DNA of 64,000 nt from Sulfurimicrobium lacus (GTDB lineage: Bacteria; Pseudomonadota; Gammaproteobacteria; Burkholderiales; Sulfuricellaceae), in NCBI RefSeq assembly GCF_011764585.1, contig NZ_AP022853.1, positions 3,071,501-3,135,500 of the forward strand, read 5' to 3'. The notes under the pieces are model-generated. The model did not search any database, was not told where the DNA came from, and was given only the letters and a program-made list of their open reading frames with translations. Below, one piece after another: positions 1,724-24,673 of the stretch (position 1 is the stretch's first letter; each line of letters starts with the position of its first letter). Made by a program: the position numbers and the translations under genes.

Positions 1724-2470
1724 ATGGCCCACAGCCTGTTCATCTCCGATCTGCACCTGAGTGCCGATCGCCCGGAAGTTCTTTCCGCCTTTAGCGAATT
1801 TCTTGCCACCACCGCGGTCCATGCCGACGCCTTGTACATTCTGGGCGACCTGTTCGAATACTGGGCGGGCGACGACGACCTGGACGCGCCCTTCAATCGC
1901 CAGGTCGTTGCCGCGCTCGCCGCGCTGAATGCCGGCGGCACTGCCCTCTACCTGATGCACGGCAACCGCGACTTTCTCATGGGCGAAGCCCTGGCGACCG
2001 CCTGCGGCGCGCACTTCCTGCACGACCCCGAGTTGCGGGACATCCATGGCACAGCAACCCTGCTGATGCACGGCGACAAGCTGTGCACCGACGACACCGC
2101 GTACCTGGCCTTCCGCGAACAGGTACGCGATGCGCAATGGCAGCAGGCCTTTCTCGCCCAGCCGCTGGCGCTGCGCAAAGCGCAGATCGAGCAGTTGCGC
2201 GAGCAAAGCAGACAGGCGCAGCGCGAGAAGGCGGCCGAAATCATGGACGTGAACGCCGAATCTGTTATAAATTTACTCGGGAAATACGGCTATCCGCGCC
2301 TGATCCACGGCCACACCCACCGCCCTGCGCTTCACCTGCAGGAAATCGACGGTCGCCGCTGCGAGCGCTGGGTGCTGCCGGACTGGTACGAGCAGGGCGG
2401 CTACTTGCGCTGCGACGAGCACGGTTGCGCGGCAATCAATATCCAGATGGTTAAAGGGGAACAAAAATGA
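1724..2470 (+). CDS. lpxH: UDP-2,3-diacylglucosamine diphosphatase
   Basis: A peripheral inner-membrane metallophosphoesterase of lipid A synthesis that hydrolyses UDP-2,3-diacylglucosamine to lipid X and UMP. The 248 residues carry the full calcineurin-type metal-binding set: SDLHLS near residue 8, GDLFEYW near 41, GNRDF near 80, LMHGDKLC near 113 and HGHTHRP near 196. Length and motif order match LpxH. Its stop overlaps the next start as ATGA, so translation with the DAHP synthase gene may be coupled although the pathways differ. A second, more distant LpxH-like protein lies at 35134-35937. Confidence 0.95.
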   Translation: MAHSLFISDLHLSADRPEVLSAFSEFLATTAVHADALYILGDLFEYWAGDDDLDAPFNRQVVAALAALNAGGTALYLMHGNRDFLMGEALATACGAHFLHDPELRDIHGTATLLMHGDKLCTDDTAYLAFREQVRDAQWQQAFLAQPLALRKAQIEQLREQSRQAQREKAAEIMDVNAESVINLLGKYGYPRLIHGHTHRPALHLQEIDGRRCERWVLPDWYEQGGYLRCDEHGCAAINIQMVKGEQK

Positions 2471-3582
2471 TTCTGATCCTGGCCCAAGACATTTCCCACG
2501 AGAGCGCCGATTTCCGCCAACTGATGGACCACCTCCACGCGCTGCCCGGCATCAAGACGCGCGTTCACCAGGAAAAAGGCGAGCAGCAGACGCTCACCGA
2601 AGTCTATTTGATCGGCGACACCGGCCCGCTTGCCGTCGAAGACATGAAAACCCTGCCCGGCGTGGAGCGCGTGGTGCGGGTCTCGGAAGAATACCGCGTG
2701 CTCGGCCGCCACAAGGACGACGAGCGGCCCACCCACTTCGATTACAACGGCGTGCGCTTCGGCCAGGACACGCTCAACATTTTCGCCGGGCTATGCGCCG
2801 TGGACGTGCAAGAACACGTGGAAGCGATGATGAAGGCGCTGCGCGACAACGGCCAGGTGTGCACGCGCATGGGCGCTTACAAGCCGCGCACCAGCCCCTA
2901 TGCCTTCCAGGGCCACGGCAAGGCCTGTCTGCCCTGGGTGTTCGAACTGGCGGGCAAGTACGGCATCAAGGTGATTGCCATGGAAATCACCCACGAATCC
3001 CACCTCGACGAAATCCGCGCCGCCCTGCACCAGGCCGGCAACCCCACCGGCGTGATGCTGCAGATCGGCACGCGCAACACGCAAAACTTCGAGTTGCTGA
3101 AAATCGTCGGCCGTCAGCAGGAGTTACCGGTGCTGTTCAAGCGCGGCTTCGGCATCACCCTGGACGAATCGCTCAACGCCGCCGAATATCTCGCCTCGGA
3201 GGGCAACCGCAAAGTCGTGTTCGGCCTGCGCGGCATGAAGACCAACATGGGCGACCCGCACCGCAACTTCGTCGATTTCGCCCACGTGCCGGTGGTCAAG
3301 CGCCTCACCCGCATGCCGGTGTGCATCGACCCATCCCATTCGGTCGGCGCGCGTTCGCGCGCGCCGGACGGCCTGCTGGATATTTTCCACGTGGTGGCGC
3401 AGGGCGTGGTCGCCGGCGCCAACATGATCCTGGTGGATTTCCACCCGGCACCAAAAAAAGCGCTGGTGGACGGTCCACAGGCATTGTTGATGGAAGAACT
3501 GCCGCACTTCATCGAGGACGTGCAACTGGCGCGGGAAACCTACCTGCAGCGTCAGTCTCTGGCCCAGCGCTACCGGATATAG
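2467..3582 (+). CDS. aroF: 3-deoxy-7-phosphoheptulonate synthase, type I-beta
   Basis: Catalyses condensation of phosphoenolpyruvate and erythrose 4-phosphate, the first step of the shikimate pathway. The 371 residues consist of an N-terminal ferredoxin-like (ACT-like) segment of about 90 residues and a TIM-barrel catalytic domain. Diagnostic stretches are GAYKPRTSPYAFQG, IGTRNTQNFELL, LFKRGFGITLDE and CIDPSHSVG. The usual AGPC motif reads AGLC, a mild deviation. The N-terminal extension places it in the I-beta subclass rather than with E. coli AroFGH. The symbol aroF is used by family convention only. The ATG overlaps the lpxH stop. Confidence 0.9.
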   Translation: MILILAQDISHESADFRQLMDHLHALPGIKTRVHQEKGEQQTLTEVYLIGDTGPLAVEDMKTLPGVERVVRVSEEYRVLGRHKDDERPTHFDYNGVRFGQDTLNIFAGLCAVDVQEHVEAMMKALRDNGQVCTRMGAYKPRTSPYAFQGHGKACLPWVFELAGKYGIKVIAMEITHESHLDEIRAALHQAGNPTGVMLQIGTRNTQNFELLKIVGRQQELPVLFKRGFGITLDESLNAAEYLASEGNRKVVFGLRGMKTNMGDPHRNFVDFAHVPVVKRLTRMPVCIDPSHSVGARSRAPDGLLDIFHVVAQGVVAGANMILVDFHPAPKKALVDGPQALLMEELPHFIEDVQLARETYLQRQSLAQRYRI

Positions 3583-3638
3583 CAATTTCGACCCGGTCTG
3601 ACAGCGTATGTCGGATCGCGTCCGATCAGGGATCCGAA

Positions 3639-4901
3639 TCACATCTCAAAGTGCTGCCGTACGCGGTCTTCCAGGAGCTGTCGGGCATCGCTTTCGGTAC
3701 TGTTTGCCAGGCGATTGAATATTTCAGGCGCCATGGTGCGAAACACCGTCATGACCGATGGGTCGAAATGGCTGCCTGTGTCTTTTTCAAGAATCGCCAT
3801 TGCCGCCTCGAAGCCCATGGGTTCCTTGTACGGGCGTTTTGAACAGAGTGCGTCGAATACATCGGCGACGGCAAAAATTCGCGCTGCGAGCGGTATCGTC
3901 TCACCGGAAACCTTGTGCGGATAGCCGGAACCGTCCCATTTTTCATGATGTGCGGCCACGACCGCGTTGGCCCCATCGAGCCAGCCCATGCCGGTAACAA
4001 TCTCCTCACCCTGCGCGACGTGGGTACGCATGATGACCAGTTCCGCATCGTCCAGTTTCCCGGGCTTGAGTAAAATTGCATCGGGAATCCCGATTTTCCC
4101 CACATCGTGCAGAAAGCTGCCGGCAATGAGCGCCTGCATGGCGCTTCCCATCAGGCCCATGCGCTCCGCTATGCGTGCGGCGATCCAGGCAACCCGGTAA
4201 TTGTGCGCGCCGGTATCGGAGTCGCGTTTGGCAATGGCGCGGCCAAGCGCCTCCATCATCGAAATATGCGAATCGAGCACCTCGCGTGCCTTGCGCTCGT
4301 TGTCGGCGGATAGACGAATCACCACTGGATAGATCGCGACACCGCATAGCAGGGACGCCAGACCGATCATCAATGCTGCGGTCAAGGAACTAGCGAACAT
4401 TTGCTCCTTCTGCCATGCCGGCACAACGCGTACACCCTCGAAATAGCCGGTAATGAGTCCATTCGTGTCAGTGGCAGAATTGCGCAGAGGGACAAAAACT
4501 CGCAGGACCCACGGTTCCCCTGCAATCTTCAGGCTTTCGTACGAGGCAGCGGTGTAGCTTGGCGTGCCATGATGAGGAAGGAATTTCTCGACCGCCTCAC
4601 CCCCCTTATTCATCGATTCTGCAAGTTTGCGGCCCTTGCCGTCGTATATTTCGGCAATATCAAACAAGCCACCTGCAATGGTTCTAGCCGCGACGGTGGC
4701 ATGCTCGGCGGCATCCGTGCCGGAGAGATCGATTGCGTTGTGGTGGTGCAGCAACCGGTCCGATTCTTCGATGGCCAGGGATACGATACTTTCCTCGGCA
4801 CTTTCACGCGCAACAAACCATGACACAGGGCTGGCAATCGCCGCAAGAATAATGCTGACAGCGGCGATGCGAATAGCAGTGCGCTTCTGGAATGGGTTCA
4901 T
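3639..4901 (-). CDS. membrane-anchored HD-GYP domain protein, probable c-di-GMP phosphodiesterase
   Basis: 420 residues: a transmembrane helix near residues 10-30, a periplasmic sensor region of about 140 residues, a second membrane helix near 170-195 and a C-terminal HD-GYP domain. The domain is intact: FLHDVGKIGIPD holds the HD metal ligands, followed by H..HHEKWDGSGYP (the GYP signature) and ADVFDALCSKRPYK. HD-GYP proteins hydrolyse c-di-GMP to pGpG or GMP. The periplasmic part has no family I recognise and may sense a small molecule. The gene converges with the DAHP synthase gene and lies beside a diguanylate cyclase, suggesting opposing activities. Confidence 0.9.
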   Translation of the reverse strand: MNPFQKRTAIRIAAVSIILAAIASPVSWFVARESAEESIVSLAIEESDRLLHHHNAIDLSGTDAAEHATVAARTIAGGLFDIAEIYDGKGRKLAESMNKGGEAVEKFLPHHGTPSYTAASYESLKIAGEPWVLRVFVPLRNSATDTNGLITGYFEGVRVVPAWQKEQMFASSLTAALMIGLASLLCGVAIYPVVIRLSADNERKAREVLDSHISMMEALGRAIAKRDSDTGAHNYRVAWIAARIAERMGLMGSAMQALIAGSFLHDVGKIGIPDAILLKPGKLDDAELVIMRTHVAQGEEIVTGMGWLDGANAVVAAHHEKWDGSGYPHKVSGETIPLAARIFAVADVFDALCSKRPYKEPMGFEAAMAILEKDTGSHFDPSVMTVFRTMAPEIFNRLANSTESDARQLLEDRVRQHFEM

Positions 4902-5128
4902 CGATTTTTTTCCTTTGGGGGCGTTATTTGCTGGAAAGCACGGCCGGTCTCACGAAACGTCATGAGGTCGTAGCGTTATTGTCCACGCGCAAGCTTAAAG
5001 CCAGCTTAACAGCGCTGTGTGGAAAATAAAAACCAGGGAAGGGGTTGTATCGGTTCTGCCAGGCGACCTGGAGAACATTCGTTACAGGCGCAGGAATTCA
5101 CGCGCAGCGCCAGCCGCCTAAAAGTGAG

Positions 5129-6049
5129 TCACTCGCAGTCGCAGCCCGACTGGTCGCCCAGACAGTCCCACAGGCACACCTGATTGCGCCCTGAAGCCTT
5201 GGCGCAAAGCAGGGCGTGATCGGCTTTTTCGATCGTATCTTCGACCGCTTCGTCCGAACTCATGACGGCGACACCGAATGAAGCTGTGATGTGAATGATG
5301 CCCTTGTCCTTGAGGGCGATCGGATACGCGGCCAGTTCGGCGCACAAGCGCTCCATGGTTTTCACCACGTCCTGCGCGGTACTGGAGGGTAAGCAAAAGA
5401 GGAACTCCTCGCCCCCGTAGCGGAAAATCGCGTCATATTTGCGCAGCTTGCCGTGAAAGAAAGCGATCGTTTCATGCAGCACAGTGTCTCCGGCCAAGTG
5501 GCCGTATTCATCGTTGACCCGCTTGAAGTGATCGAGGTCCATCATGCACACGCAACAGGCGGCGCCGCTGCGCGCCATGCGCTCGTGTTCCTGCTGCAGC
5601 TTGTGCAGCATACCGTTCCTGTTCCACACCCCGGTGAGATGGTCCACCAGGCACATCTTGCTGATGATGCTGGTCTGCAGCCCGCTCATTTCCAGCTTGA
5701 AGCGGATGGACAGATCCATGAACTCGTCGTACTCGTCTGCGGAAACCGCCTGTCCGTTTTCCCTTCTGTTCAACAGGAGGCGCGCGTTATCGTGCATGCT
5801 CTTGTGAAAAGCGCCCATCTTCTCGAACCACGGACCTTCCTGCAGTTCTGGGTAATCGCGCTGGTAATACCACTGGCCGAACTTGCAGCGGCAATGGGCG
5901 TCGGTCAACAAATCCGCGGGACTCGCCCCTCCGCCACAAACCAGGGCGCGGTGCAGATCCTTCAGCCAGGAGGTATGGCTCGTACTGCCGGCATCCAGTT
6001 CATGCAGCGTCTTCAACAAAAAGGAAGTTGAAGCTCGGGAAGAAGGCAT
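5129..6049 (-). CDS. CZB-GGDEF diguanylate cyclase, DgcZ-like
   Basis: 306 residues with no membrane segment. The N-terminal 110 residues match a chemoreceptor zinc-binding (CZB) domain: H.SWL..LHRAL, then CRCKFGQWYY, then H.SMH, giving the His-Cys-His-His zinc set. The GGDEF domain follows with DLDHFKRVND and the active-site loop GGEEF near residue 213. The inhibitory-site motif RKYD sits exactly five residues before GGEEF, so product inhibition is likely. Domain order and length match E. coli DgcZ, in which zinc inhibits the cyclase. An in-frame TTG at 6070 could extend it by seven residues; the ATG at 6049 is preferred. Confidence 0.9.
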   Translation of the reverse strand: MPSSRASTSFLLKTLHELDAGSTSHTSWLKDLHRALVCGGGASPADLLTDAHCRCKFGQWYYQRDYPELQEGPWFEKMGAFHKSMHDNARLLLNRRENGQAVSADEYDEFMDLSIRFKLEMSGLQTSIISKMCLVDHLTGVWNRNGMLHKLQQEHERMARSGAACCVCMMDLDHFKRVNDEYGHLAGDTVLHETIAFFHGKLRKYDAIFRYGGEEFLFCLPSSTAQDVVKTMERLCAELAAYPIALKDKGIIHITASFGVAVMSSDEAVEDTIEKADHALLCAKASGRNQVCLWDCLGDQSGCDCE

Positions 6050-6085
6050 GATCGGGTTCCGCCAAGGCAATGAAAAGAACCTGGA

Positions 6086-7273
6086 TTATAGCCGCATCCG
6101 TAGGATTTTTCCGACATCATTATCAGGGATAACCACCGGGTTGGTCTTCATGCTGCTGCCGCGGCAGTTGGCGACGATGCGCGGAAGGTCCGCCTCGCCC
6201 ACGCCGAACGCGCCCAGGCGCGGCACGTCCATGCGCTCGGTCCATGCGTCGAGGACGCGCAACAGCGCCCCGTGCGCCGCACTGTCGTCGCCATGGGCCT
6301 GGCGGCTCAACAGGCGTCCGGCGCGCGCATACTTTGCCAGCGCCGGATTGGCCGGCTCGCGCGCCTCCATGGCCTCGATGTTCACGCGCGTCGCCGCTGC
6401 CAGCAGGGTGCCGCACGCCACGCCGTGGGGGATGGGGAAGAAAGCGCCGAGCGGCGCGGCCAGGCCGTGCACCGATCCCAACCCCACCTGGGCCAGGGTG
6501 ATGCCGGAAAGCAGCGCGGCATACGCCATCTTCTCCCGCCCGAGTGCAGCATCCATATCATTCTCGTACCATGGCAGCAGGCCATCGCGCACTGCCTCCA
6601 TGCCGGACCACGCCAGCGCGTCGGTGAACGGGTTGGCCTTGCTGGAAACAAAGGACTCCAGCAGCTGGGTGAAGGCATCCATGCCATTGGCGGCGATCAG
6701 GTGCGACGGGCAGGAAGCCAGCAAGTCCGGATCGACCACCGCATATTCCGCCACCAGCTGCTCGTCGCGGAAAGACTTCTTGAAGCCATCCGGGCCGTGC
6801 GTGGAAAGCACCGCGTTCTTGGTCGCCTCGGAGCCCGTCCCGGCGGTCGTCGGCACCGCGACTAAAGGCGTCGCCGGGCCACGGTAAGGCAGTTCCGGGC
6901 CCACGCCCTCAAGGTGATCCATCACCGAATTGCCCGGCTTGAGCAATCCGGCTATTGCCTTGGCGGCGTCCAGCACGCTGCCGCCGCCGATGCCCAGCAC
7001 CACGTCGAACCGTCCGCCACGCAGGCTTGCGACAGCCTCGTCCACCAGTTGCGGCGAAGGCTCGTCCGTAACCTGGAATATTTCCCAGGCGAATCCCTGC
7101 GCCTGCAACGCCGCGTTCAGCCCTTCCCAATGCAGCGAGCCGAGGAAGGATCGGCCGCCGCTGACGAGCAGCACCCGCTTGCCGTAGCGGGCCAAAATAT
7201 CGGGCAGTTTCTTTGCGCTGCCGGCGCCGAACTCGATGCGCGGCAAGCGGGCGATGGAAAAGATATCGGTCAT
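6086..7273 (-). CDS. iron-containing alcohol dehydrogenase family protein
   Basis: 395 residues of the group III (Fe-dependent) alcohol dehydrogenase fold. The nucleotide-binding part shows GIGGGSVLDAAKA near residue 95 and PTTAGTGSEAT near 140. Metal ligands are expected from D in NGMDAFTQLLES and from the histidines of SVHGLAAPLGAFFPIPHG. Such enzymes reduce aldehydes or oxidise alcohols with NAD(P); the substrate cannot be told. It lies 22 bases downstream of an ABC exporter operon on the same strand and may be cotranscribed, though no functional link is evident. Confidence 0.9.
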   Translation of the reverse strand: MTDIFSIARLPRIEFGAGSAKKLPDILARYGKRVLLVSGGRSFLGSLHWEGLNAALQAQGFAWEIFQVTDEPSPQLVDEAVASLRGGRFDVVLGIGGGSVLDAAKAIAGLLKPGNSVMDHLEGVGPELPYRGPATPLVAVPTTAGTGSEATKNAVLSTHGPDGFKKSFRDEQLVAEYAVVDPDLLASCPSHLIAANGMDAFTQLLESFVSSKANPFTDALAWSGMEAVRDGLLPWYENDMDAALGREKMAYAALLSGITLAQVGLGSVHGLAAPLGAFFPIPHGVACGTLLAAATRVNIEAMEAREPANPALAKYARAGRLLSRQAHGDDSAAHGALLRVLDAWTERMDVPRLGAFGVGEADLPRIVANCRGSSMKTNPVVIPDNDVGKILRMRL

Positions 7274-13083: not shown

Positions 13084-13107
13084 AAGCCGCGCCGCCCGGC
13101 GCGGCTT
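13084..13107 (-). terminator. hairpin after the spermidine-synthase-like gene
   Basis: A perfect 10-bp GC-rich stem (AAGCCGCGCC/GGCGCGGCTT) with a 4-base loop, 15 bases past the stop of the reverse-strand gene at 13122. On that strand it is followed by a weak T stretch (TTTCATT if the stem end is counted). It probably ends the six-gene unit that starts near 24466. Confidence 0.6.
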
Positions 13108-13121
13108 GCGGAGGAGGTGTC

Positions 13122-13910
13122 TCAGACCAGCAAACGCTTTTCGCTGTGCACGTTGAGATTGCGCAAGGCGTCGACAAAGTCGGGAAACTCCAGACCGTAT
13201 TCCGCCTCCAGTTGCTTCGCCCGTTCCTTGAGCTCCTGCCAGCGCGGGTTGCCGGGGCTGCGCTTGAATCCGAACACGATGACGTTGCTCAGGCGCGCCG
13301 TGGTCATACACACGACCAGGCTGTTGAAGCTGGCCTCGATGCGCTTGAGATAGACGTCGAACAGCTTGTCGCTGCTCCACAGGTTCACCACCAGCACGCC
13401 GTCGTCTGTCAGCGCCGCCGCGCAGTCGTCGTAAAAGCTCTGGCTCGCCAGCGCCTCCACCAGGCTGCGGTCGTCGTAGCCGTCGACCATCAGCACGTCG
13501 TATCTGGCAGCGTGATCGCGCACATAATCCACGCCATCGGCAATTTCCACCGCAAAGCGCTCATCCGTTTCGGGAAGGAAGAAATGGCTGCGCGCCGCCG
13601 CCAGAACCTGGGGATTGATTTCGACCACATGCGTCTGGACCGAGGGCAGTTTGTGGTACACGAATTTTGCCACGGAGCCGCCACCCAGGCCGACCATCAG
13701 GATGTTCGCGGGAACGTGACGAAACAGCAGAAACCCCATCATCGAGCGGGTGTAAGCCAGTTCCAGCTCGTACGGCGCGTTGATGCGCATCGCGCTTTGC
13801 ACCGTGACGCCGCCCAGGTGCAGGTAACGCACGCCGTCGCGCTCGCTCACGTCCACCGTGCCCTGCTCGCTCACCGCCTTATGGGTGCGCCATTTGGAAA
13901 GAAAACCCAC
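13122..13910 (-). CDS. spermidine synthase-like (polyamine aminopropyltransferase family) protein
   Basis: 262 residues with an SAM-type Rossmann core: ILMVGLGGGSVAKFV near residue 70, THVVEINPQVLAAA near 92, and YDVLMVDGYDD near 137. This matches the short spermidine-synthase-like family of proteobacteria, in which true aminopropyltransfer is often unproven. It lacks the usual N-terminal beta domain of SpeE. It follows the exported-protein genes by 30 bases on the same strand and precedes a hairpin, so it may be the last gene of that unit. Methyltransferase activity is an alternative. Confidence 0.8.
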   Translation of the reverse strand: MGFLSKWRTHKAVSEQGTVDVSERDGVRYLHLGGVTVQSAMRINAPYELELAYTRSMMGFLLFRHVPANILMVGLGGGSVAKFVYHKLPSVQTHVVEINPQVLAAARSHFFLPETDERFAVEIADGVDYVRDHAARYDVLMVDGYDDRSLVEALASQSFYDDCAAALTDDGVLVVNLWSSDKLFDVYLKRIEASFNSLVVCMTTARLSNVIVFGFKRSPGNPRWQELKERAKQLEAEYGLEFPDFVDALRNLNVHSEKRLLV

Positions 13911-13940
13911 TGCTTGCGTTGCTCCTGATGTCCCGAACTA

Positions 13941-14807
13941 CTACTGGACGGCAATGCTTCTGGTCAGCATGCTGGGAGGACGGTTGCTGCCCGGGTTGCT
14001 GTCGAGATAGCGCACGCTCAGTATGGTCGGCACGGAAATGAACTGCAGGATATGATCGCCGGGTGTATTGCTGACCGCTCTTTGCATCGAGACCGGTCCG
14101 TTGAAAACAAAATACCCGGGACCGGCTGCCGTCAGAGTGACATTCTCACGGTCGCCCTGCACAGTCGCAAGCTCCACGGTCAGCGTACTCTGTCCAATGA
14201 GATCAGGATCGGTCACTGCAATCTGCAACGGAATACCTACAACTCCAGCCGCCGGACCCGGCGCCAGAATCGCAGCTGGCCCGAAAGCGATCTGCCCCAG
14301 TACGCCGCTCTGGCTGGAGAAGGGGTTGTCGCCCGAGACCGCCGCCATGCGCCACCCCTCCTTGCCGCGGTGCATCAGGAACATGCTGTGCCCGCTGAAG
14401 ATGCCCGGCTGAAAACTGGTGACGGAGAGAAAACGTTTTTCCCAGTTGGTCTGGATCACCGCGACGTCCGGTCCTGCCACCACCTGGGTGTCGAACAGGT
14501 GCAGACGAATCTGCTTGAGCGCATTGCTGTCTTGGGCAACGCCATCGATCAGACGCTGATAGCCGATCATGGCGGGGTCCAGCCGGGTACGGATCAGATT
14601 GACATTGCCGGTTTCGTAGGCGCGAATAAGCTCGTCCAGCGCAAGCTGCGCCTTCTGTGCCTCGGCCAGATCGGCGATCGGCTTTGCTGCGGCAGCCTTT
14701 GCCTCGCCTGCCGCATCATCCGCCGCCGACGCGGGTTGAATCAAGCCCGCCAACCCCAGCAACAGCAAGCACAGGCTGCTCGTCAGCAGTTTCTTTCTCA
14801 TGGACAT
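13941..14807 (-). CDS. exported protein of unknown function, last of five in cluster
   Basis: 288 residues. A signal peptide spans residues 1-29 (KKLLTSSLCLLLLGLAGLIQPASA). The first mature half is helical (AQKAQLALDELIRAYETGNVNLIRTRLDPAMIGYQRLIDG) and resembles an NTF2-like or stress-type fold with WEKRFLSV; the second half is beta-rich and ends with VRYLDSNPGSNRPPSML. No family is recognised with confidence. It lies 14 bases after the beta-barrel-like gene with an AAAGGGA ribosome site, so it is probably cotranslated with the cluster. Predicted location is the periplasm or cell surface. Confidence 0.75.
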   Translation of the reverse strand: MSMRKKLLTSSLCLLLLGLAGLIQPASAADDAAGEAKAAAAKPIADLAEAQKAQLALDELIRAYETGNVNLIRTRLDPAMIGYQRLIDGVAQDSNALKQIRLHLFDTQVVAGPDVAVIQTNWEKRFLSVTSFQPGIFSGHSMFLMHRGKEGWRMAAVSGDNPFSSQSGVLGQIAFGPAAILAPGPAAGVVGIPLQIAVTDPDLIGQSTLTVELATVQGDRENVTLTAAGPGYFVFNGPVSMQRAVSNTPGDHILQFISVPTILSVRYLDSNPGSNRPPSMLTRSIAVQ

Positions 14808-14821
14808 ATTCCCTTTACAGT

Positions 14822-16546
14822 TCAGTACAGATAAACCAGCTGCAGACCAACGGTCCTGTCGCTATAGTTGGTGATGACGCCACCACCGCCGTTTTGGTTG
14901 TTCCTGACATAAAGTCGGAGCGAATTTTGCCCCTTGAACGGGTAAACCGCATCCACCTGATAGCTCCTCAGGCGCAAATCCGCCCCGCCCGTGGTCTGCG
15001 TTGTTGTCCCGTCCGACAAGCTGGCATTCAGTGACCCCCAGCCGGTACGCTGGGCTGAAACACCCAGGCCCAACATGGTGGAACGGGTGCTGCCGCCAGC
15101 ATCGAGGCGTTGCTCCTGCAGCGAAGCAGTGAAGTTTGTCCCCAGCGTCCAGGTGCCACCGGCCACGCCGGAATCATCGCTCCAGTTCCTGCCCACCGTT
15201 CCGATCCAGCCTGTGGTTTTGGCGTTCGCGCCAGGCGCCGCATTGCTACTGACTTTTTGCTCGGTATAACCGAGGCTGCCACTCCAAGCCTGTCCATAGT
15301 AGAAAAGTGAAGCGCCATTGCCTTCATTTTTGCTGCTGGCACCAGTATTGCCGCTTTCACCCTTGGATTGGGAGTGATTCAACATCAAGCCCCAGCCTGG
15401 CCAATCAGCACCGAAATTGATGAAAGCCCCGGCCAGCAGCGCATCGGTTTTTTGCGCATTGACGGTATTCAGGGCGCCTTCATTGACCGAATGACGCGCA
15501 TCAGCGGTAAACGTCACCCACGGTGCGGCGGTCCAGTCGCCAGCGACATAGGTTTCCTTGATACCCGGGGCCGCCATGCCCGAAAGGGAACTATAGTACC
15601 TGCCGATTTTGTGATGACCCGCGCGCAGTCCCACGCTTTGCACCCGCCAGTTGGCATCGACGATGAGGGCATTATCCTTATGCTCCTGCAGCCCCTCCTC
15701 CTGCCAGCGGCTCACACCGGCTTCGCCCTGCACCCCGAGCTCACCCTGCTGATAGGCAAAACCGGCCGTGGTGGCCCGCGCCGAAGCCGGCGCGAGTAGC
15801 GACATTCCCTGCCCCAGGCTGCCCCTATCGTCAGAATATCCCTGGGTGGTCACATAGCCGCGCCATGCGTCGTTCAGCGGGGTTTCAACCTTGCCCGCAT
15901 AAACATTACGCAGAAACTGGGTACGCTGCACGGTATTGGCCAGACTCTCCCAGCTTTGCGCCAGCACACCCGCACTGGCGGAGAGCATGGATTGCCCGAA
16001 CATCTTCTGCCCCCCCACGCCACGCAGGCCAACGCTGGTGCCCAACTGAGAATAACTTGCCACCACATCCCCCAGCGTGACTTGATAATCCTTCCCCGCG
16101 CGCCCCATCAGCAAGCTGTTGATCTGGGTAGGATGGGATGAAAGCACGGAACGGTCGTTGGTATTGGTCAGGGAAAGCTGCATGTAACTCAGATCACCTT
16201 CAGCGGAAGTCCCGCGCAGGTCGCTTTGCACATCCGCCTTGTAGTAGCTGCCGCTTCTGGTGGGCGTCAGCAGGTTGCCGCCGGAAGAACTGTTCACATA
16301 TTTGTCCAGCGTTACCCCGCCATGCCATTCGATGGTGGTACCGCCATCCGCTTGCTGCACCAGATCCGGCGCCTGTCCGCCGGCAGCGCTTTGCTGCCAG
16401 GCCTGCAGTACCTCGCTGTTATCGGCCAGGATGGCAGGGTTGCTCAAATCAGCCGCAGCAGCCGTGCCGCAGCTCGCTGCAAGCGCCAGCAACCACCCGC
16501 CCTGGAAACCGCAGGAATTCCCCTTGATACCTCGCCTGAATGTCAT
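14822..16546 (-). CDS. outer-membrane beta-barrel-like protein of unknown function
   Basis: 574 residues with an N-terminal export signal (LLALAASCGTAAAA). The mature part is dominated by alternating amphipathic strands joined by Gly/Ser/Asn turns (for example SYYKADVQSDLRG, AGFAYQQGELGVQGEAGVS, SFKGQNS-type strands), has few cysteines, and ends VGLQLVYLY, a terminal aromatic typical of barrels recognised by BamA. It is not one of the named porin families I can recognise. It follows the Fn3 gene by 26 bases with an AAAGG ribosome site. A role as anchor or secretion pore for the neighbouring giant protein is inference. Confidence 0.72.
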   Translation of the reverse strand: MTFRRGIKGNSCGFQGGWLLALAASCGTAAAADLSNPAILADNSEVLQAWQQSAAGGQAPDLVQQADGGTTIEWHGGVTLDKYVNSSSGGNLLTPTRSGSYYKADVQSDLRGTSAEGDLSYMQLSLTNTNDRSVLSSHPTQINSLLMGRAGKDYQVTLGDVVASYSQLGTSVGLRGVGGQKMFGQSMLSASAGVLAQSWESLANTVQRTQFLRNVYAGKVETPLNDAWRGYVTTQGYSDDRGSLGQGMSLLAPASARATTAGFAYQQGELGVQGEAGVSRWQEEGLQEHKDNALIVDANWRVQSVGLRAGHHKIGRYYSSLSGMAAPGIKETYVAGDWTAAPWVTFTADARHSVNEGALNTVNAQKTDALLAGAFINFGADWPGWGLMLNHSQSKGESGNTGASSKNEGNGASLFYYGQAWSGSLGYTEQKVSSNAAPGANAKTTGWIGTVGRNWSDDSGVAGGTWTLGTNFTASLQEQRLDAGGSTRSTMLGLGVSAQRTGWGSLNASLSDGTTTQTTGGADLRLRSYQVDAVYPFKGQNSLRLYVRNNQNGGGGVITNYSDRTVGLQLVYLY

Positions 16547-16572
16547 GGTTCAACGCCTTTTTTCAAACTTGT

Positions 16573-18546
16573 TCATGGCTGTGCAATCTCTACCGCCTCC
16601 GACGGTTTTCCCTGGACGCCGTTGACAGCCTGGTAAACCGCCCGGTACTCGCTCCTGCCGCGCGGCAGATTGGCGTGAGTCGCTTCCCCGCCTTCCGCCG
16701 CCGGCCCGGCCAGAACGATCCAGGCATCCGAAGCCGCTGTCCTGAATTGTATCACCACCCCCAGACCAGCCGGAGGCGCGGAGAAGCGCACCAGGGCATG
16801 GGGAAAGGGCTCGGCTACCCGTGCCACTTCCGGCCTGCGGGCGGTCGGAATTTCCTGGTTGCCCACCCTCACGGCCACTGCGCTGCCCGGATCGCTGCGG
16901 TTGCCGCTCTTGTCCAGCGCCACAAGCTGATACCAGTACACTTTTCCTGCCTCAACCGAGGAATCCTCGAAACTGCGGGCCTTTTGTGGCAACGGATCGC
17001 CCAGCACCAGACCGCGCTCGCGCGCCGAGAGGGAACGCAATACCAGGAACTGCTCCACATCCTCTTCACGCCCCGCCGGCGCAAAACCAAGCGTCACCTT
17101 GCCATTGCTGCCGTCAATAGACGTGATGCGAGGGGCGGGGGGCGGCACCGTGTCAGGCAGTGTCGCCGTTACATCCCTGCCGGGCCGGCTTTCCTGGTTG
17201 TCGTAGCCGACCGCAACAATACGGTAACTGAACGCCCCGCTTCTGCCCGGGCCATAATAGTCATCGTAAAACGGTTCAGGGCGTACCCGGCCATTAAGGC
17301 GCAGCCACTGATCCTCGCCATCGCCACGCCGCTCGATAAAATACCCGGCCACCGCCGCGCTGACCGGCTCCCAGGCAAGGTGCACACGCGTGCGCCCTAC
17401 CTCCGCCTTCAGCCCGGAAACGGCTGGCGGCGCTTGGCGCCCAGCGGTTTGCACCATCACCGCGCGTGAAGGCGTTCCCAGGTCGCCGCGTGGCCCCATG
17501 GCGCGCAGGCGGTAGTAGTAGGCCGTCCCGGGGCGCAGGTTGCGGTCTATGTGGCGCGCGACATCGGCACGCAATCCTTGAGGCGTCAGAGTCTCATAGG
17601 GACCGTCGTAAAGATAGGCACGTTCAACCACGTATCCCGTCGTATGGGGATTACCGCTGCCTTTCCAGCGCAGGGTGACCTCGTCCCGATCCGCAGCAGC
17701 ATTGAATTCGAATGGCGGCTCAAGCGCCTTGAGATCGGCGGCAAACAGCTTGACACTGGCCGGCTCGCTCCTGCGGCCGAGTGCGTCCACGGCGAAAACA
17801 CGGTAAGTCAGTTCGTTTTCGAGGGGCGCATTTCTGTCCACCAGCGCCGGCTGCAAAACATTCCAGCGCAGGCCGCGCACCAGCGGTTTAGGGGTGATCA
17901 GCACGCCATCCCGTTCAACGACATAGGCGATGACGGGGAGATTGCGATCAACATGGGCCGGAGACCAGTACAGTGCCACGCCGCCCCCCTGTGCCAGTGC
18001 CTTCAGCTCCAGGGGTGCAGCAGCGAGGGGGCTGGCAACGGTGCCATCCACGGGAGAACTGGTAAAAGAGACATTCACGGGCTTGGCGTTACGGTCCAGG
18101 CCAATCACCCGATAGGCCCGTTTTCCCGGCGCGACATGCGGCAGAACCCAGCCCAGACCGAGGGCTCGCGCATACGGCCAGTCCGCCATGGCACGTGCAC
18201 CGAGCAATCCATAGACAAGATTCACATCCTCGGGCTTGCTGGCTTTGGCAAGCACATCCTGCAGCTGGCGCACCCCTTCGGCATCTTTTTGCGACACGGC
18301 AGCAAGCGCCTCCGCCTCGCCAGGCACGATGCGATCCACCAGCACCTGCCCGCCTGAGGAATCGAGCAGCCGCCAGCCTCCGGCAGGCCAGCGACCGACG
18401 GGAGGAAACCACCACAGCCTGACCTCGCCCATGCCGTCGGAAGCGGCAAACATGCCGCCGACCGCGTCCTTGGCATCCACCGCCCAGGCCGGGCTCGCCA
18501 GCCAGAGTGCCAGCATGGCCAGCCAGACTGAAAAAATACGTGCCAT
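16573..18546 (-). CDS. exported protein with four fibronectin type III domains
   Basis: 657 residues. The ATG at 18546 (MARIFSVW) is chosen because AGAGGG precedes it and a signal peptide ending SPAWA follows. After an N-terminal region of about 170 residues come four Fn3-like units: around LKALAQGGGVALYWSPA, around VTLRWKGSGNPHTTGYVVERA, around VHLAWEPVSAAVAGYFIERR, and around VTLGFAPAGREEDVEQFLVL. Each shows the W...Y.VER and TAYYYRLRA-type pattern. Such domains usually mediate protein or polysaccharide contact at the surface. It starts 13 bases after the giant protein gene. Confidence 0.85.
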   Translation of the reverse strand: MARIFSVWLAMLALWLASPAWAVDAKDAVGGMFAASDGMGEVRLWWFPPVGRWPAGGWRLLDSSGGQVLVDRIVPGEAEALAAVSQKDAEGVRQLQDVLAKASKPEDVNLVYGLLGARAMADWPYARALGLGWVLPHVAPGKRAYRVIGLDRNAKPVNVSFTSSPVDGTVASPLAAAPLELKALAQGGGVALYWSPAHVDRNLPVIAYVVERDGVLITPKPLVRGLRWNVLQPALVDRNAPLENELTYRVFAVDALGRRSEPASVKLFAADLKALEPPFEFNAAADRDEVTLRWKGSGNPHTTGYVVERAYLYDGPYETLTPQGLRADVARHIDRNLRPGTAYYYRLRAMGPRGDLGTPSRAVMVQTAGRQAPPAVSGLKAEVGRTRVHLAWEPVSAAVAGYFIERRGDGEDQWLRLNGRVRPEPFYDDYYGPGRSGAFSYRIVAVGYDNQESRPGRDVTATLPDTVPPPAPRITSIDGSNGKVTLGFAPAGREEDVEQFLVLRSLSARERGLVLGDPLPQKARSFEDSSVEAGKVYWYQLVALDKSGNRSDPGSAVAVRVGNQEIPTARRPEVARVAEPFPHALVRFSAPPAGLGVVIQFRTAASDAWIVLAGPAAEGGEATHANLPRGRSEYRAVYQAVNGVQGKPSEAVEIAQP

Positions 18547-18559
18547 CTTGGATGCCCTC

Positions 18560-21500
18560 TTACAAATGCACCGTAAAGCTGACATCCGGCGCAAGCGGTA
18601 TTTCTATCTTGGCCTTCGCCCGGACGTCCACTGGAAAAGCTTCGGCATGCACAGCAGCGGTGACTCCCGCGTCATAGCAGCCACCGACGATGCAGGCTCC
18701 AGCCTCAACACCTGCGGCAAAATCGCCGGCCACTTTGGGTTGAGTGGTGATCTGCAGGCCCATGTCCATGTAGCCCTTCACGTACGCCGACGCCACCGAG
18801 GAGGCTCCCACGCCGAGATAGACCTGCTGCGCCCCACCCACCGCGAGGCCGGTATCCGAACCCAGCATCAGGTAGGAGTCCGCATCCTGAATCAGAATGT
18901 GCCCCCTGATGCGCGGGCCGGTATTCTTGCCCGCATACACGTGCCAGCTGCCGCCGCCGACATGCAGGTCGACCGCAGCATTGTTTTCGCCGTTGCCAAG
19001 ATCGAAACGGATGGCGCCACTGAGCATGTCCAGATTGCCCCACAACCGGCCGTCGAAATTACCGCCGCCATATTTGAAAAACCCTGTGAAATCGCCGTCT
19101 CCGCTCTGGCTTGCCTTGAGCAGCCAGGCGCGGAAATCCATGCGGGCTCCGGCGCTGGCACCGGTGGTCACGGTAAAGTCGCCATCCATCATGACCGTGA
19201 ACTTGTCCGAGCTCCCGACCCGCATCCCAACCATGAACGAAGTGTCGGCGCTGGAAGAAAACGCTGCCTGACCAATTGGTTTCCCACCCTGCAGCGAATC
19301 GCCAGTAACGTGATAACCAAGCCCGCCGCGCACCCTGTAAAGGGTCAACGGCACCGGCGAGAGCGATACCCCGCTTGCCCCCAGCGGAATTTCGAGCCGC
19401 GTCAGCCAGTAATCCGTGCTGCCTTCATAACCGAGCAGGAATTCGCCTTTGATCGGCGGCCCGCCAAACATGCCGATGTCGACACTGCCGGTGTAACGCG
19501 TTCCGGGGTTGGGTTTCGGATCATAGACCGGGTCGATGCTGGCCTCCGTCACCGGCTGGCCGGCCGGGAATGCCACTTTGAGATTGAAGGGCGTGCTCAC
19601 CGGCCCACTGCCCTCATAGCTGTCGCCGCTAATCTTGTAAATCGCCTGAACATTTGCCGCCGGCAGCGAGGGAGAGAGGCGGACCTGGCCGCTGAAAGCC
19701 ATTTTCAGGCGCTCGTTGCCGCTGGCCCCGCCTGTCAGGTGCAAGCCCTGCAGTTCCAGCCTGGACTTGCCGAGATCGCCAAAGCCGCCCAGTGGAATAT
19801 CCCGAGTTGCCGTGCCATTTTCGTCGAAATAGGCGCGTCCGTTCATGCCGAAGCGCATGTCAGGCACTGCAATCGGTTCAGAGTTGAAGGCTTTCCCCTC
19901 GGCCTTGAAGCTCAGTTCAGGATCGACAATGGCGCGCCAGCCGCCGCTCTTGTCAAAACCGAAACGGAAGCTGTCCGGCTTGGCGCTCAGGTGAATCGGG
20001 CCAAAATCGCGCTGCACGGTTTCTTTCGGCTTCACGCCTGCAAATTCAAAGCTGCCTTCCTTCTGGTTAGAGGAGAGGAGTTGCACGTCGTCGCTGTGCA
20101 GCAAGGCATTCAGGAACGGCAACTGGACGTCGATGTTGTAGTGCGCATCGAATGTCCCGCTCGATTTGGCTTCCAGCGAAACCTTGTTGAAACTGATCGT
20201 ACCTTTTCCGACGCTCAGGTTCATCAGACGCGGATCATTCTGCAGGGAGAATTTGCCGCAGGCGTGGTTGGTTACACCCCAGTTGCTGCTCTGGATGGTG
20301 ACTGGTGCCAGGTCGGAGGTATTGATCTCGATATCAGCAGAGCCGAAATTCACCCCCACCCAGTTGCTGCCGGAAGCGCCGCCACAGGCATCCGGGCCTT
20401 GGCCGGTGCTGCGGCTCAGATCGAGAGTGACATCGCTGGAGTTCAGGTAAAAACCGCTCCAGCCCAGCGCCACTTTTTTGTCGAGTTTGACTTTAGCACT
20501 CCAGTCGCCGTTTTGCCGCAAATTGGCGGCGGTTTTCCATGACGGCACATCACCGCTACCGGCGAACAGCAGGAAGCTGTCGCCCAGTTTTGCATTCAAG
20601 GTGGCCTTCATTTCCTTCCCTGCCGTGCCTTCGATCTTCGCCACGGACACGTCAGTCAGCCCCATGGTCGAAATGGGTCCGGAAGACACGGTCTGGGACA
20701 GCTTGGTGCCCGGCGCGACGTTTCCAGCCTGGTCCACCTGCCAGTTCTGAAAGGAAACGCCGACGTTCGGAATCAAGGTTGCGCCATTGCTGGAACTGGT
20801 CAGCTTGACATCCAGTGTCCCGCTGCCGCTATATGTCCCTCCCGATTCCTTGGGCAGGTTCTGCTGATCGAGGTAAACGCTGAACTTGTCCCCCTGCTCG
20901 CCGGCAAAATAGAATTCGCACGGCTTGCTCGGATCAATCGCCACCACCTTGTATTTCTTGCTCGGCGATTTCACCTGCTGGCCATCCAGATTAAGGCCCC
21001 CGGCCAAGCGCGAGGAGGTGGCAGACAATTTCCGGCCTGCCGCCGCCAGGGCCGTGGAGGTCTGGGCATCATTGGCATACAGCACGGGCGGCGAGGATTT
21101 TCCGCCTTCCCTGCTCGGCCGCAGGAAGCCCACCTTGACTGCTTTCTCGCCTCTCTGCGCCGCCAGCGCATTCACGTCCACCACACCCCCCCGGCCCTGC
21201 AACCTGAAGGCATGATCGAACAAGGGCTCCGGCTTGACCTTGACCTCGACCCAGATTTCGTACACATCCGCCGGATCCACGGGCAGGGCCGGCGAGTACA
21301 GGTCATGAGTGCCGGGCAGGGGATCTTTCCAGTTTTTTGGGTCCCCTTCCCTTGCTGGCGAACGGCCCACGGTGCCGGGACCGGTTGCCGGGAAGGACTG
21401 GACACCTTTCTTGCCCTTGAGTTTCACTTTCCAGGTCGCGTCAACCGCGCCACTGCCAAAATAGCTCAGCACCGCGTGGGCGGTAAATGCCTTGTTGCAG

Positions 21501-24154
21501 CCGCTGCACGTGGCATCCACCCCATCGTCAAGCTGGAGCACTGCCTGCGAAATGGAGTTATTGGCGAGCTTGACGTTGCCCGGGCCAGAAGCCGATAGAG
21601 ACGCAGCAGATTTTTCCTTGGACGCCACGGCACCACGCGCAATGCCGGTTTTTGCGCTGACTTTGCCGACCGGAGACCGAGCCCGCTGCGGCGGACCGAA
21701 CGACACGATGTCCACCGACTCGAGGTGCAGCGGTCCATAAGCCACTGGATCCATGTACGGCATGATGTTGACCGTCTGGCACATCATCACATATGCACGT
21801 TCGGCGATGTCCTTTGCCTTGGCGTCATTATCCCTTCCTCCGGCCTGCGCCAAGCTGCCGGTGCCGCGCAGTTGTCCGTAAGCTCCAAGCCCTGCCGAGC
21901 CTGACGGATGATCGTAGGCATCCGCCAGATCGGCAGGGTTCGCCTGCTGCACATCCCTTTCCGCCAACTGATAGACGCGGATATTGAAATAGCCGGTGCG
22001 CGAATATTGGTGGGTGAAGAACGTTTCACGCCGCGCGGCATGTTCCTTGTTGCCAATCGCCACCGTATGCGAATACTCGCCGTATTCCTGCTGGTCCGGC
22101 AGCGTCATGGCGACATCGCCGTTGATGCCTTTTTTGTCCTGGTCGTTGTAAAGAGGATCTTCCGGTTTGCCCACCAGCGGTACCACCGTGCCATCGCCCC
22201 AATCCACGAACAGATTGTCGAAGCGATATTTGGCAACCGTCGGAAGAGTCGCCGTGCCCATGCCGGACTGCGACGAACCAGATGACTTGGAAGGCTCCAG
22301 TTCCACGCCGGGATGGGATTCGTAAGGCGAATTGGCGAGCACCACCTTGCCCGAGAGTATCCAGTTGTCGAATGGATGCGCCACTGCGGCCACGCTGGTA
22401 TCGCCTTCGCCCTTGTCCATATTCTGGGCGCGCAGAACCGGCTGCGCCTGGGGCACCAGCGGGCAGGCGCCGAAGCCATTCGGCCGATTCGGCTTCCTGA
22501 GCGGCCAGCGATCGGAAATCTCGACTTCGACAGGTTCACCCGGCTGCACCAGAACGCCCGTCATGCCCTGCCTGCCCGTATCGGAGACACCCTGCGCAGA
22601 CATGTTGGCAGCCACCAATCGGACGGGCGCATCGCTCTCCATGGCCGCTTTCTGCTCGACCCCGTTGCTCAGGTAAACGCGGTAGCCCGCCACTTCCCAC
22701 AGCAGGTCTGTTGCGTTCGGGTAGTTCACGGGAGGCGCACTTTCCTGCTGTGCAGCCCCTCCTGCCGACCCGGCGGGGGAATATTTTGCACTGCTCGGCG
22801 ACTTTACCTTGGCACCGCCCTTGGCCGTGCCTGAAGGAGCGGCACTGAGAGGACCGGTAGCGGGATTAAGCAACGTGTCGAGGAAGGCTGGATCAGGCTG
22901 ATAGTAGGTCGGGGGCGGTAATTTTGTCGGCTGCGAACTGCCCGGCCATACCGCCGTGCCGCCCTCAAGGCGCTTGCGCATCAGCACATTGCCGTTTTTA
23001 TTCAGAATGCGAAACTCGAAAAACTCAGCCGTACCCGGGTTTTTCTCCTGCCAGCGGAACACCAGATCATCCTGCAACAGGGGCGCGCTATCGGCCATGT
23101 TGCACTCACCGCTTAGCGCAACGCCATCCCTCGAGCAAGTCATCTTGGTGCCGGTTGCGGGGTCGGTTTTAGCCGTGGAAGACCATCCCGGCGATTTCAA
23201 CTCGATCCGGCCCGGTTTGAAACTGGTATCGAACGGCCTCAGCTTGGGTTTGACATCCATCGGCTTGAAGCCAGCCAGCACCTGAACGCTAGCAGAAGTC
23301 ATGCTCCACGCCTGGTTTGGCGTCATGCGCGCCCCGACCAGGCGCACGCCCGGCTGAGCACTGGATGCGACTTCCACTTCCATCTGGGCAAAGGACGAAG
23401 TGATGATTTTAGGCGGCGTCTTGATCTTGACGCCGTCGCCAAAGCGCAGTTCCATGCCGTTCACGAAATCGTTCCCGTTCAGTGTCAACTGGTAAGTTTT
23501 TCCGGTCTGCCACTGGTTCGGCACAACCTGCAAGGCGATTACCGGAACGGGATTGGACATCGGCGTCTGTGGTGGCGGTGCTGGCGGTGCTGGCGGCATC
23601 TTCACCCCGGGAAGCGGGGCCGCAGCTCCTGCCATCCCGGCCAGGCCCGGCCCGGGCATAATGGTGATGCGGGCAGGCTGCGGCTGCGGCGGCAGGACCG
23701 CAAGGCTGGAAGGCACGGTGAGAATCACCTGACGCACGCCTGGCGCGGCGCCCGGCTCGACCCTGACATTCACCTGGGCGCCGCGTCCGCCTTCTGCCGC
23801 GAAAATAAGCGGGGAAGTCAGGGTAACTCCGCTGCCGAAGTCCACCTTGATGCCGGGCCGGAGCCCCTGTCCCAGCAATTGCAGGGTGTAGTTCTGCCCC
23901 GGCATCAGCGTGGATGGCGAAACGGACTGAATGGTGGCTGTAGTGGTTTGTGCCGCCGGAGGCGGGGCCATAATGGCGGGGGTTGAAGCGGGCGCTCTAT
24001 TGAGGACCGGCGGCACGGTGATCATGTTCCGCATGTCAGCCGCAAAAGAGAGCTGGGCCGCGAAAATGCTCAGCGATACCAAAAACAATAGCGCGGACAG
24101 ATGCCAAAACCCAGCCCCGCACCACTCAACGGCCCATGCCTTATTCCGCGCCAT
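18560..24154 (-). CDS. giant exported multidomain protein (IPT/TIG-like, PKD-like, long beta-rich C-terminus)
   Basis: 1864 residues. A signal peptide ends near residue 39 (AAQLSFA). Two IPT/TIG-like units lie near 72-165 (SVSPSTLMPGQNYTLQLLG, PGVRQVILTV) and 205-295, separated by a Pro/Gly linker. Residues about 640-725 look PKD-like: DNLFVDWGDGT and HQYSRTGYFNIRVYQ. A CSGC pair lies near 885. From about 950 to the end the chain is rich in short beta strands and ends SFTVHL, with no family I recognise; GGGSWHVYAGKNTGPRIRG and a small GACIVGGCY motif are near the end. It has the build of a large surface or matrix protein. Function unknown. Confidence 0.85.
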   Translation of the reverse strand: MARNKAWAVEWCGAGFWHLSALLFLVSLSIFAAQLSFAADMRNMITVPPVLNRAPASTPAIMAPPPAAQTTTATIQSVSPSTLMPGQNYTLQLLGQGLRPGIKVDFGSGVTLTSPLIFAAEGGRGAQVNVRVEPGAAPGVRQVILTVPSSLAVLPPQPQPARITIMPGPGLAGMAGAAAPLPGVKMPPAPPAPPPQTPMSNPVPVIALQVVPNQWQTGKTYQLTLNGNDFVNGMELRFGDGVKIKTPPKIITSSFAQMEVEVASSAQPGVRLVGARMTPNQAWSMTSASVQVLAGFKPMDVKPKLRPFDTSFKPGRIELKSPGWSSTAKTDPATGTKMTCSRDGVALSGECNMADSAPLLQDDLVFRWQEKNPGTAEFFEFRILNKNGNVLMRKRLEGGTAVWPGSSQPTKLPPPTYYQPDPAFLDTLLNPATGPLSAAPSGTAKGGAKVKSPSSAKYSPAGSAGGAAQQESAPPVNYPNATDLLWEVAGYRVYLSNGVEQKAAMESDAPVRLVAANMSAQGVSDTGRQGMTGVLVQPGEPVEVEISDRWPLRKPNRPNGFGACPLVPQAQPVLRAQNMDKGEGDTSVAAVAHPFDNWILSGKVVLANSPYESHPGVELEPSKSSGSSQSGMGTATLPTVAKYRFDNLFVDWGDGTVVPLVGKPEDPLYNDQDKKGINGDVAMTLPDQQEYGEYSHTVAIGNKEHAARRETFFTHQYSRTGYFNIRVYQLAERDVQQANPADLADAYDHPSGSAGLGAYGQLRGTGSLAQAGGRDNDAKAKDIAERAYVMMCQTVNIMPYMDPVAYGPLHLESVDIVSFGPPQRARSPVGKVSAKTGIARGAVASKEKSAASLSASGPGNVKLANNSISQAVLQLDDGVDATCSGCNKAFTAHAVLSYFGSGAVDATWKVKLKGKKGVQSFPATGPGTVGRSPAREGDPKNWKDPLPGTHDLYSPALPVDPADVYEIWVEVKVKPEPLFDHAFRLQGRGGVVDVNALAAQRGEKAVKVGFLRPSREGGKSSPPVLYANDAQTSTALAAAGRKLSATSSRLAGGLNLDGQQVKSPSKKYKVVAIDPSKPCEFYFAGEQGDKFSVYLDQQNLPKESGGTYSGSGTLDVKLTSSSNGATLIPNVGVSFQNWQVDQAGNVAPGTKLSQTVSSGPISTMGLTDVSVAKIEGTAGKEMKATLNAKLGDSFLLFAGSGDVPSWKTAANLRQNGDWSAKVKLDKKVALGWSGFYLNSSDVTLDLSRSTGQGPDACGGASGSNWVGVNFGSADIEINTSDLAPVTIQSSNWGVTNHACGKFSLQNDPRLMNLSVGKGTISFNKVSLEAKSSGTFDAHYNIDVQLPFLNALLHSDDVQLLSSNQKEGSFEFAGVKPKETVQRDFGPIHLSAKPDSFRFGFDKSGGWRAIVDPELSFKAEGKAFNSEPIAVPDMRFGMNGRAYFDENGTATRDIPLGGFGDLGKSRLELQGLHLTGGASGNERLKMAFSGQVRLSPSLPAANVQAIYKISGDSYEGSGPVSTPFNLKVAFPAGQPVTEASIDPVYDPKPNPGTRYTGSVDIGMFGGPPIKGEFLLGYEGSTDYWLTRLEIPLGASGVSLSPVPLTLYRVRGGLGYHVTGDSLQGGKPIGQAAFSSSADTSFMVGMRVGSSDKFTVMMDGDFTVTTGASAGARMDFRAWLLKASQSGDGDFTGFFKYGGGNFDGRLWGNLDMLSGAIRFDLGNGENNAAVDLHVGGGSWHVYAGKNTGPRIRGHILIQDADSYLMLGSDTGLAVGGAQQVYLGVGASSVASAYVKGYMDMGLQITTQPKVAGDFAAGVEAGACIVGGCYDAGVTAAVHAEAFPVDVRAKAKIEIPLAPDVSFTVHL

Positions 24155-24181
24155 TTGTTTTTCCCCCCCTTTATCCCCTGA

Positions 24182-24466
24182 CTAGCGCCTCTGCGGCATC
24201 GGTGGCTCCGGCTGGGGATTGATACCTACGGCTGTTCCCGGCCTGAGAAGCTTATGCTCCACTGGTAACGGAGGTTCTGGCTGGGGATTGATGCCAACCT
24301 TTTCAGCGGGCTTTAAAATTTTCTGTCTCGGCGCGCCCGGCGGTTCGGGTTGGGGGTTGATAGCGATGGCTTCGCCAGGCTTGAGCGGCTGCGCGCCGAA
24401 CGCGAATGGAGAGGACGTAGCTGCCAGCAACACGAGCAGAATGCCAAACCTTGATTGCATATTCAT
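24182..24466 (-). CDS. small exported protein with three NPQPEPP repeats
   Basis: 94 residues. The ATG at 24466 is chosen because a GAGG site precedes it and a signal peptide follows ([19 protein letters not shown]). The whole mature protein is three repeats of exactly 23 residues starting near positions 28, 51 and 74, each with L(K/R)P(G/A).(A/K).(A/G)INPQPEPP. No globular domain is predicted by eye; the proline-rich repeats suggest an extended linker or ligand chain. It is the first gene of the exported-protein unit, 27 bases before the giant protein gene. Proteins with NPQPEPP repeats occur elsewhere but I know of no assigned function. Confidence 0.8.
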
Positions 24467-24673
24467 GGAAACCTCATTGGAATATGGAAATTTCAGGAAC
24501 ACACGTGCGCCGGCCAAACCACCGCAAACCTGGCAGTTATGACGAATACAAATTCGAGATCGGTGAATCCTTTTATAGCAGAATTCACATGTCCTGACAA
24601 CGCGATATCAAATGGTGTCACGGCAAGGCTGATGGCGGTAGAATTGGAAGTTTTCAGAATCCGGAACATCACC

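Follow-up and report, generated by a model that had tools for sequence, protein, structure and literature searches.

Outer-membrane β-barrels work together with large exported chains of immunoglobulin-like (Ig-like) or repetitive character in two-partner secretion and in the inverse autotransporters, and the barrel of the pilus ushers has 24 strands. To our knowledge, only a few 26-strand barrels have an assigned function. In MtrB, the sheath protein of MtrCAB (6r2q), 26 antiparallel strands are described (PMC7198977). The present work concerns a block of five genes for exported proteins, here called npq, giant, fn3, barrel and p288, in a stretch of 64,000 nucleotides from Sulfurimicrobium lacus (contig NZ_AP022853.1, positions 3,071,501 to 3,135,500; hereafter the window, whose own numbering is used throughout). 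The block is present in this genome and absent from the five informative congeners, and it unites two gene pairs, barrel with p288 and giant with fn3, each of which recurs in other genomes. We class it with those systems in which a barrel of the outer membrane is combined with an exported protein of several domains. Its features, together with the adjoining speE gene, are as follows (aa, amino acids; G and L numbers below denote genomes and loci).

24182..24466, reverse strand: npq, exported protein of 94 aa with three NPQPEPP repeats
18560..24154, reverse strand: giant, exported protein of 1864 aa
16573..18546, reverse strand: fn3, exported fibronectin-type-III (Fn3) protein of 657 aa
14822..16546, reverse strand: barrel, putative outer-membrane protein of 574 aa, predicted 26-strand β-barrel
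13941..14807, reverse strand: p288, exported protein of 288 aa, NTF2/SnoaL-like domain and one Ig-like domain
13122..13910, reverse strand: speE, polyamine aminopropyltransferase of 262 aa (NF003380), an old neighbour outside the cassette
24572..24600, reverse strand: possible sigma-70 promoter, TTGTCA-17-TATAAA (pattern only)
13084..13107, reverse strand: hairpin 3' of speE, 10-bp stem, no T run

In outline this module resembles two-partner secretion, the ushers and the inverse autotransporters, but for each of the three one or more of the defining features were looked for and not found. As in TpsB/TpsA and the inverse autotransporters, a barrel is combined with a large exported chain that is Ig-like or repetitive; however, the window barrel has no POTRA or TpsB match in Pfam, the barrel (574 aa) and the chain are here encoded by separate genes, unlike in inverse autotransporters, and the block holds an additional conserved NTF2-like partner. 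The FimD/PapC ushers differ in that no Pfam usher or pilus chaperone match was found among the six window proteins and in that 26 strands are modelled, against the 24 of an usher. A resemblance to LapA-type adhesins is seen in two scanned p288 homologues (L056 and L037), which have weak N-terminal retention_LapA matches, the former also with a long repeat array; these matches to NF033682 (24.5 and 25.7 bits) are below the cut-off of 50, and the p288 protein of the window has no retention_LapA region or match. MtrB has the same number of strands as the barrel model and heads its fold list, which might suggest that the barrel sheathes an electron conduit in the way that MtrB encloses MtrA. We consider this very improbable: identity is 12% over the aligned part, the partner in the block is an NTF2/Ig protein, no CxxCH haem motif or multihaem partner occurs among the five proteins (a search confined to the block), and the barrel matches no Pfam family at E ≤ 1, no NCBIfam family and, with a profile of 12 rows, no sequence of the PDB at E ≤ 1.

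A five-gene insertion between speE and proS

An earlier note, made from the letters of the window alone, had described a unit of six reverse-strand genes. The gaps between them were recomputed with the same values (27, 13, 26, 14 and 30 bases), Sec-type signal sequences were recognized by eye on the first five proteins, as the note had said, and its spermidine-synthase-like sixth gene, speE, matches NF003380 with 354.3 bits (cut-off 304). The extent of the unit requires revision. The gene proS is present in all eight genomes of the genus, own included, and because speE faces it directly in 5/5 informative congeners (viz. G002, G003, G005, G006, and G007), the cassette comprises five genes, with internal gaps of 13–27 bases, and speE lies outside it. 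None of the five exported genes is found in the speE–proS stretch of these congeners. Flanks were fetched for six of the seven congeners, G004 being uninformative (short contig) and G001 left out (proS split between contigs). The genes from npq to p288 are an insertion between speE and proS, and the event would be a gain rather than repeated loss, the cassette having probably been acquired as one block. The insertion offers a natural with/without comparison within one genus.

A functional role of speE in the cassette was rejected, the gene being an ancestral neighbour; it encodes a known enzyme and lies outside the insert, which counts against the six-gene unit of the note. It also gave the sole PADLOC match at E ≤ 0.01 in the search for defence genes (mad2, E 7.9e-7), which most likely reflects a common methyltransferase-like domain. 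The hairpin said to end the unit does have its 10-bp stem; it probably belongs to speE, because in G006, one of five congeners read, the gene is likewise followed by a stem of this kind, though an imperfect one (in the other four not clearly). It has no T run and does not appear in the terminator scan list. Ribosome-binding stretches were noted by eye before each of the six genes, the weakest ahead of barrel. The promoter-like site, a pattern match, lies 106 bases ahead of the npq start codon and falls outside the -10 rule of the promoter scan, hence it is unlisted there. The block may be transcribed jointly. A plasmid origin was considered and rejected, since a search of the plasmid collection with barrel and giant gave no match at E ≤ 1e-5.

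The barrel and its p288 partner

The beta-barrel-like protein of the note is modelled by AlphaFold2, in a prediction of the window barrel by itself, as a barrel of 26 strands over residues 71–573 (predicted local distance difference test, pLDDT, 81.3); residues 1–67 are below pLDDT 50. The last strand ends at residue 573 of 574, and the C-terminal residue is aromatic, as it is in 11 of the 12 barrels. Among the aligned solved structures MtrB is followed by AlgE, porins and ushers. The rank of AlgE raises the alternative of a barrel that, in the manner of AlgE or LptD, serves as exporter of a lipid or polysaccharide, with the Ig-like and Fn3 proteins binding or organizing the polymer. This appears improbable, since AlgE rows align over only 312–318 residues at 7–8 Å, no glycan-synthesis Pfam match was obtained in the five genes, and the absence of a Pfam match for the barrel at E ≤ 1 likewise argues against it.

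Relatives of barrel are uncommon: a five-row profile matches 11 of 399 genomes of the order, own included, and a twelve-row profile matches 2 of 239 genomes of the phylum, viz. the own genome and one weak partial match. A match in G511 (E 3.4e-5, 142 positions), with no p288 match at its locus, was dropped. The 13 places found with the five-row profile represent 12 loci (the window, L036–L039, L054–L058, L060, and L061), the barrel of G293 being split over two contigs, of which L059 is the other end. In all 12 of these loci a p288 relative directly follows the barrel gene, downstream on the strand that carries it. A search from the p288 side gave matches in 6 of 200 related genomes, own included; a match in G051 (E 4.8e-4) was dropped, lying inside a 736-aa open reading frame (ORF) that looks unrelated by eye, and the other four have a barrel relative just upstream.

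The length of p288 is as given in the note, and it consists of an NTF2/SnoaL-like domain and one Ig-like tail, as is also seen in the family alignment; its match to SnoaL_3 is sub-threshold (E 0.052, 14.3 bits, cut-off 22). Five larger relatives of p288 differ in FecR: the Pfam match exceeds the cut-off in three of them (L036, L056, and L057), narrowly misses it in L037 and is absent in L039, and long Ig-like or adhesin-type repeat arrays are seen by eye in some relatives. A second short NTF2-like gene is present at L036, L037, L038, L056, and L058, and further exported proline-rich or Ig-like proteins were noted by eye near at least three other barrel and p288 loci (L036, L039, and L057). Judged by sequence comparison, the pair is without a named family in the libraries searched; a limited literature search does not prove it unpublished.

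Several neighbouring features were also observed. Sigma factors of the extracytoplasmic function (ECF) type or BTAD-type regulators lie near L036, L056, L057, and L058/L059, and neither kind is encoded by the window block, whose six genes were the ones scanned there. At L037 (positions 1760-6380) exported proteins of 1128 and 426 aa upstream of barrel have a common repeat (ESKWLMQCKNEQCK...DLRIKANLD) by eye. Within the same phylum, L093:8939-11957 holds a weak barrel relative of 574 aa followed by a 426-aa protein that looks exported by eye; these two may represent a remote form of the barrel and p288 pair.

The giant protein and its Fn3 companion

The giant protein, whose stated length of 1864 residues was confirmed, has an Ig-like domain at residues 74–145, a weaker one at residues 202–276 and a PKD-like VDWGDGT at 650 (by eye); its matches are to PF09099 (33.5 bits, cut-off 22) and to NF058597 (19.1 bits, under the cut-off of 30), the remainder is without a family match, and self-BLAST revealed no internal repeats. 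For its neighbour, said to have four Fn3 units, the PF00041 match has E 1.2e-9 and comprises two stretches at E ≤ 1, and four Fn3-like units are discerned by eye. The length of 657 aa is counted from the ATG at 18546, a longer frame of 673 aa from an upstream TTG being listed. Its PDB matches are the Fn3 domains of titin and its one PHROG match is the central tail fibre J (E 4.5e-19), both of which we read as general Fn3 similarity.

The giant protein was recognized in G107 (a metagenome-assembled genome, MAG, of Hydrogenophilales) and the own genome only among the 200 relatives, in these two again, with one further weak domain match, among the 399 genomes of the order, and in the own genome only among the 239 of the phylum. 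A match in G329 (E 3.5e-5), which spans some 100 positions close to the Ig-like domains, was dropped. A contig scan with two short peptide patterns, which can miss relatives, found G107 and a Gallionellaceae MAG (L032). The MAG giants are 31–32% identical to that of the window. The Fn3 search matched nine of the 200 relatives, covering most of the protein in G107 only (seven besides the own genome are partial); in G107 the homologue (E 3.7e-99, 44% over residues 230–667 of the 673-aa frame) is next to giant, as it also is in L032. giant and fn3 are adjacent in 3/3 loci, with a gap of 2 bases in both MAG loci.

The order of genes in the MAG loci is der, a barrel-like gene, a gene for an exported protein of 389–392 aa, giant, fn3, a further ORF, hfq and hflX. 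The exported barrel-like protein next to der (678–707 aa) is present in 1/31 genomes of the family of G107, namely G107 itself. The 392-aa protein was compared with p288 and has no similarity to it. The further ORF of G107 encodes a protein of 391 aa (L005:18368-19543), with no Pfam match at E ≤ 1 and no NCBIfam match at E ≤ 0.1, and a close relative occupies the same place in L032.

Proposed role of the cassette and competing explanations

The note had proposed that the barrel, as anchor or pore, the giant chain, the Fn3 protein and a small ligand could form one surface or matrix assembly, which conserved co-occurrence in other genomes would support. The single block, the two conserved pairs and the predicted barrel fold agree with this; the proposal is supported only in part, the two pairs, and all four proteins, being joined in the window alone. 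Our preferred reading, advanced tentatively and with rather less than even confidence, is a five-gene surface cassette, in which the barrel would form a wide channel through the outer membrane, p288 would be dedicated to it as a partner that probably sits, by way of the NTF2-like domain, on its periplasmic side, and giant with its Fn3 companion would be an exported Ig-rich chain passed or held at the surface by the channel. The use of the window barrel by giant, like the location of the products, would follow from this reading. A wide channel serving giant is favored because both lineages that hold giant place it beside an exported barrel-type gene (a barrel-like one in the MAGs), and because L036, L039, and L057 hold unrelated exported Ig-like or proline-rich genes.

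A number of observations weigh against the cassette reading. The four major genes (giant, fn3, barrel, and p288) are together in the window only, and npq was not recognized outside it in 61 genomes. The pairing of giant with fn3 represents two lineages and not three, because the MAG loci are near copies (their barrel-like proteins are 88% identical). In the MAGs the pair is adjoined by a different barrel-like protein and the 392-aa protein; homology of the former to the window barrel was rejected, with no detectable relation (hhalign probability 1.5%). The correlation between the pairwise distances of barrel and those of the p288 domain counts in favor of the reading (Mantel r 0.93 over 11 loci, L058 being left out with its barrel cut by a contig end, and 0.80 over nine loci with two near copies dropped; 1 of 9999 permutations matched the observed value in each case), but it can arise from shared descent alone. 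Base composition weakly favors a foreign origin, the G+C content at third codon positions (GC3) being 0.68–0.72 in the large genes of the insert, four in number, and 0.63 in npq, where 46 other ORFs average 0.79 (standard deviation 0.07); these were chosen by a script favoring high GC3, which exaggerates the difference, the four large genes are 1–1.5 standard deviations low, and six of the 46 are also below 0.73. The junctions have no common word of at least 8 bases, direct or inverted.

Each pair also occurs alone, barrel with p288 in 11 other loci and giant with fn3 in the two MAG loci, and several matches to secretins are present in the own genome, all of them short of the cut-off for GspD. 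Hence two independent exported pairs may share the cassette by chance, giant and Fn3 being periplasmic or leaving by type II secretion or another route, an explanation that we regard as doubtful and yet a serious competitor. The tight gaps within one block speak against it, as do the MAG loci, where giant and fn3 again adjoin a gene for an exported barrel-like protein, and the further exported proteins near the three or more loci named above. An extension of the cassette reading, which we consider unlikely, is that barrel and p288, a 26-strand pore with an NTF2/Ig partner that often includes FecR, form the centre of an export and display system of the outer membrane not described before, to which different lineages have attached unrelated giant or Ig-like cargo genes; giant and Fn3 would be the cargo in the window, and in the MAG loci the barrel would have been replaced. 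If true, a conserved barrel and partner with exchangeable giants would add a route by which large proteins reach the surface.

The npq protein, in the cassette reading a possible linker or ligand, carries NPQPEPP three times (residues 37, 60, and 83), as the note had seen. It matches no family over the cut-off in Pfam or NCBIfam and none in PHROGs at E ≤ 0.001. Among the 61 genomes 27, own included, gave matches at E ≤ 1, none of them convincing (best non-self E 0.0046). A literature search for NPQPLPP, a related motif found in one of nine frames inspected among these matches (a small ORF in G036), gave no match. The small ORF (L103) combines a double-glycine-like leader (by eye) with the motif ALNPQPLPPK, which is reminiscent of the NPQPEPP repeats.
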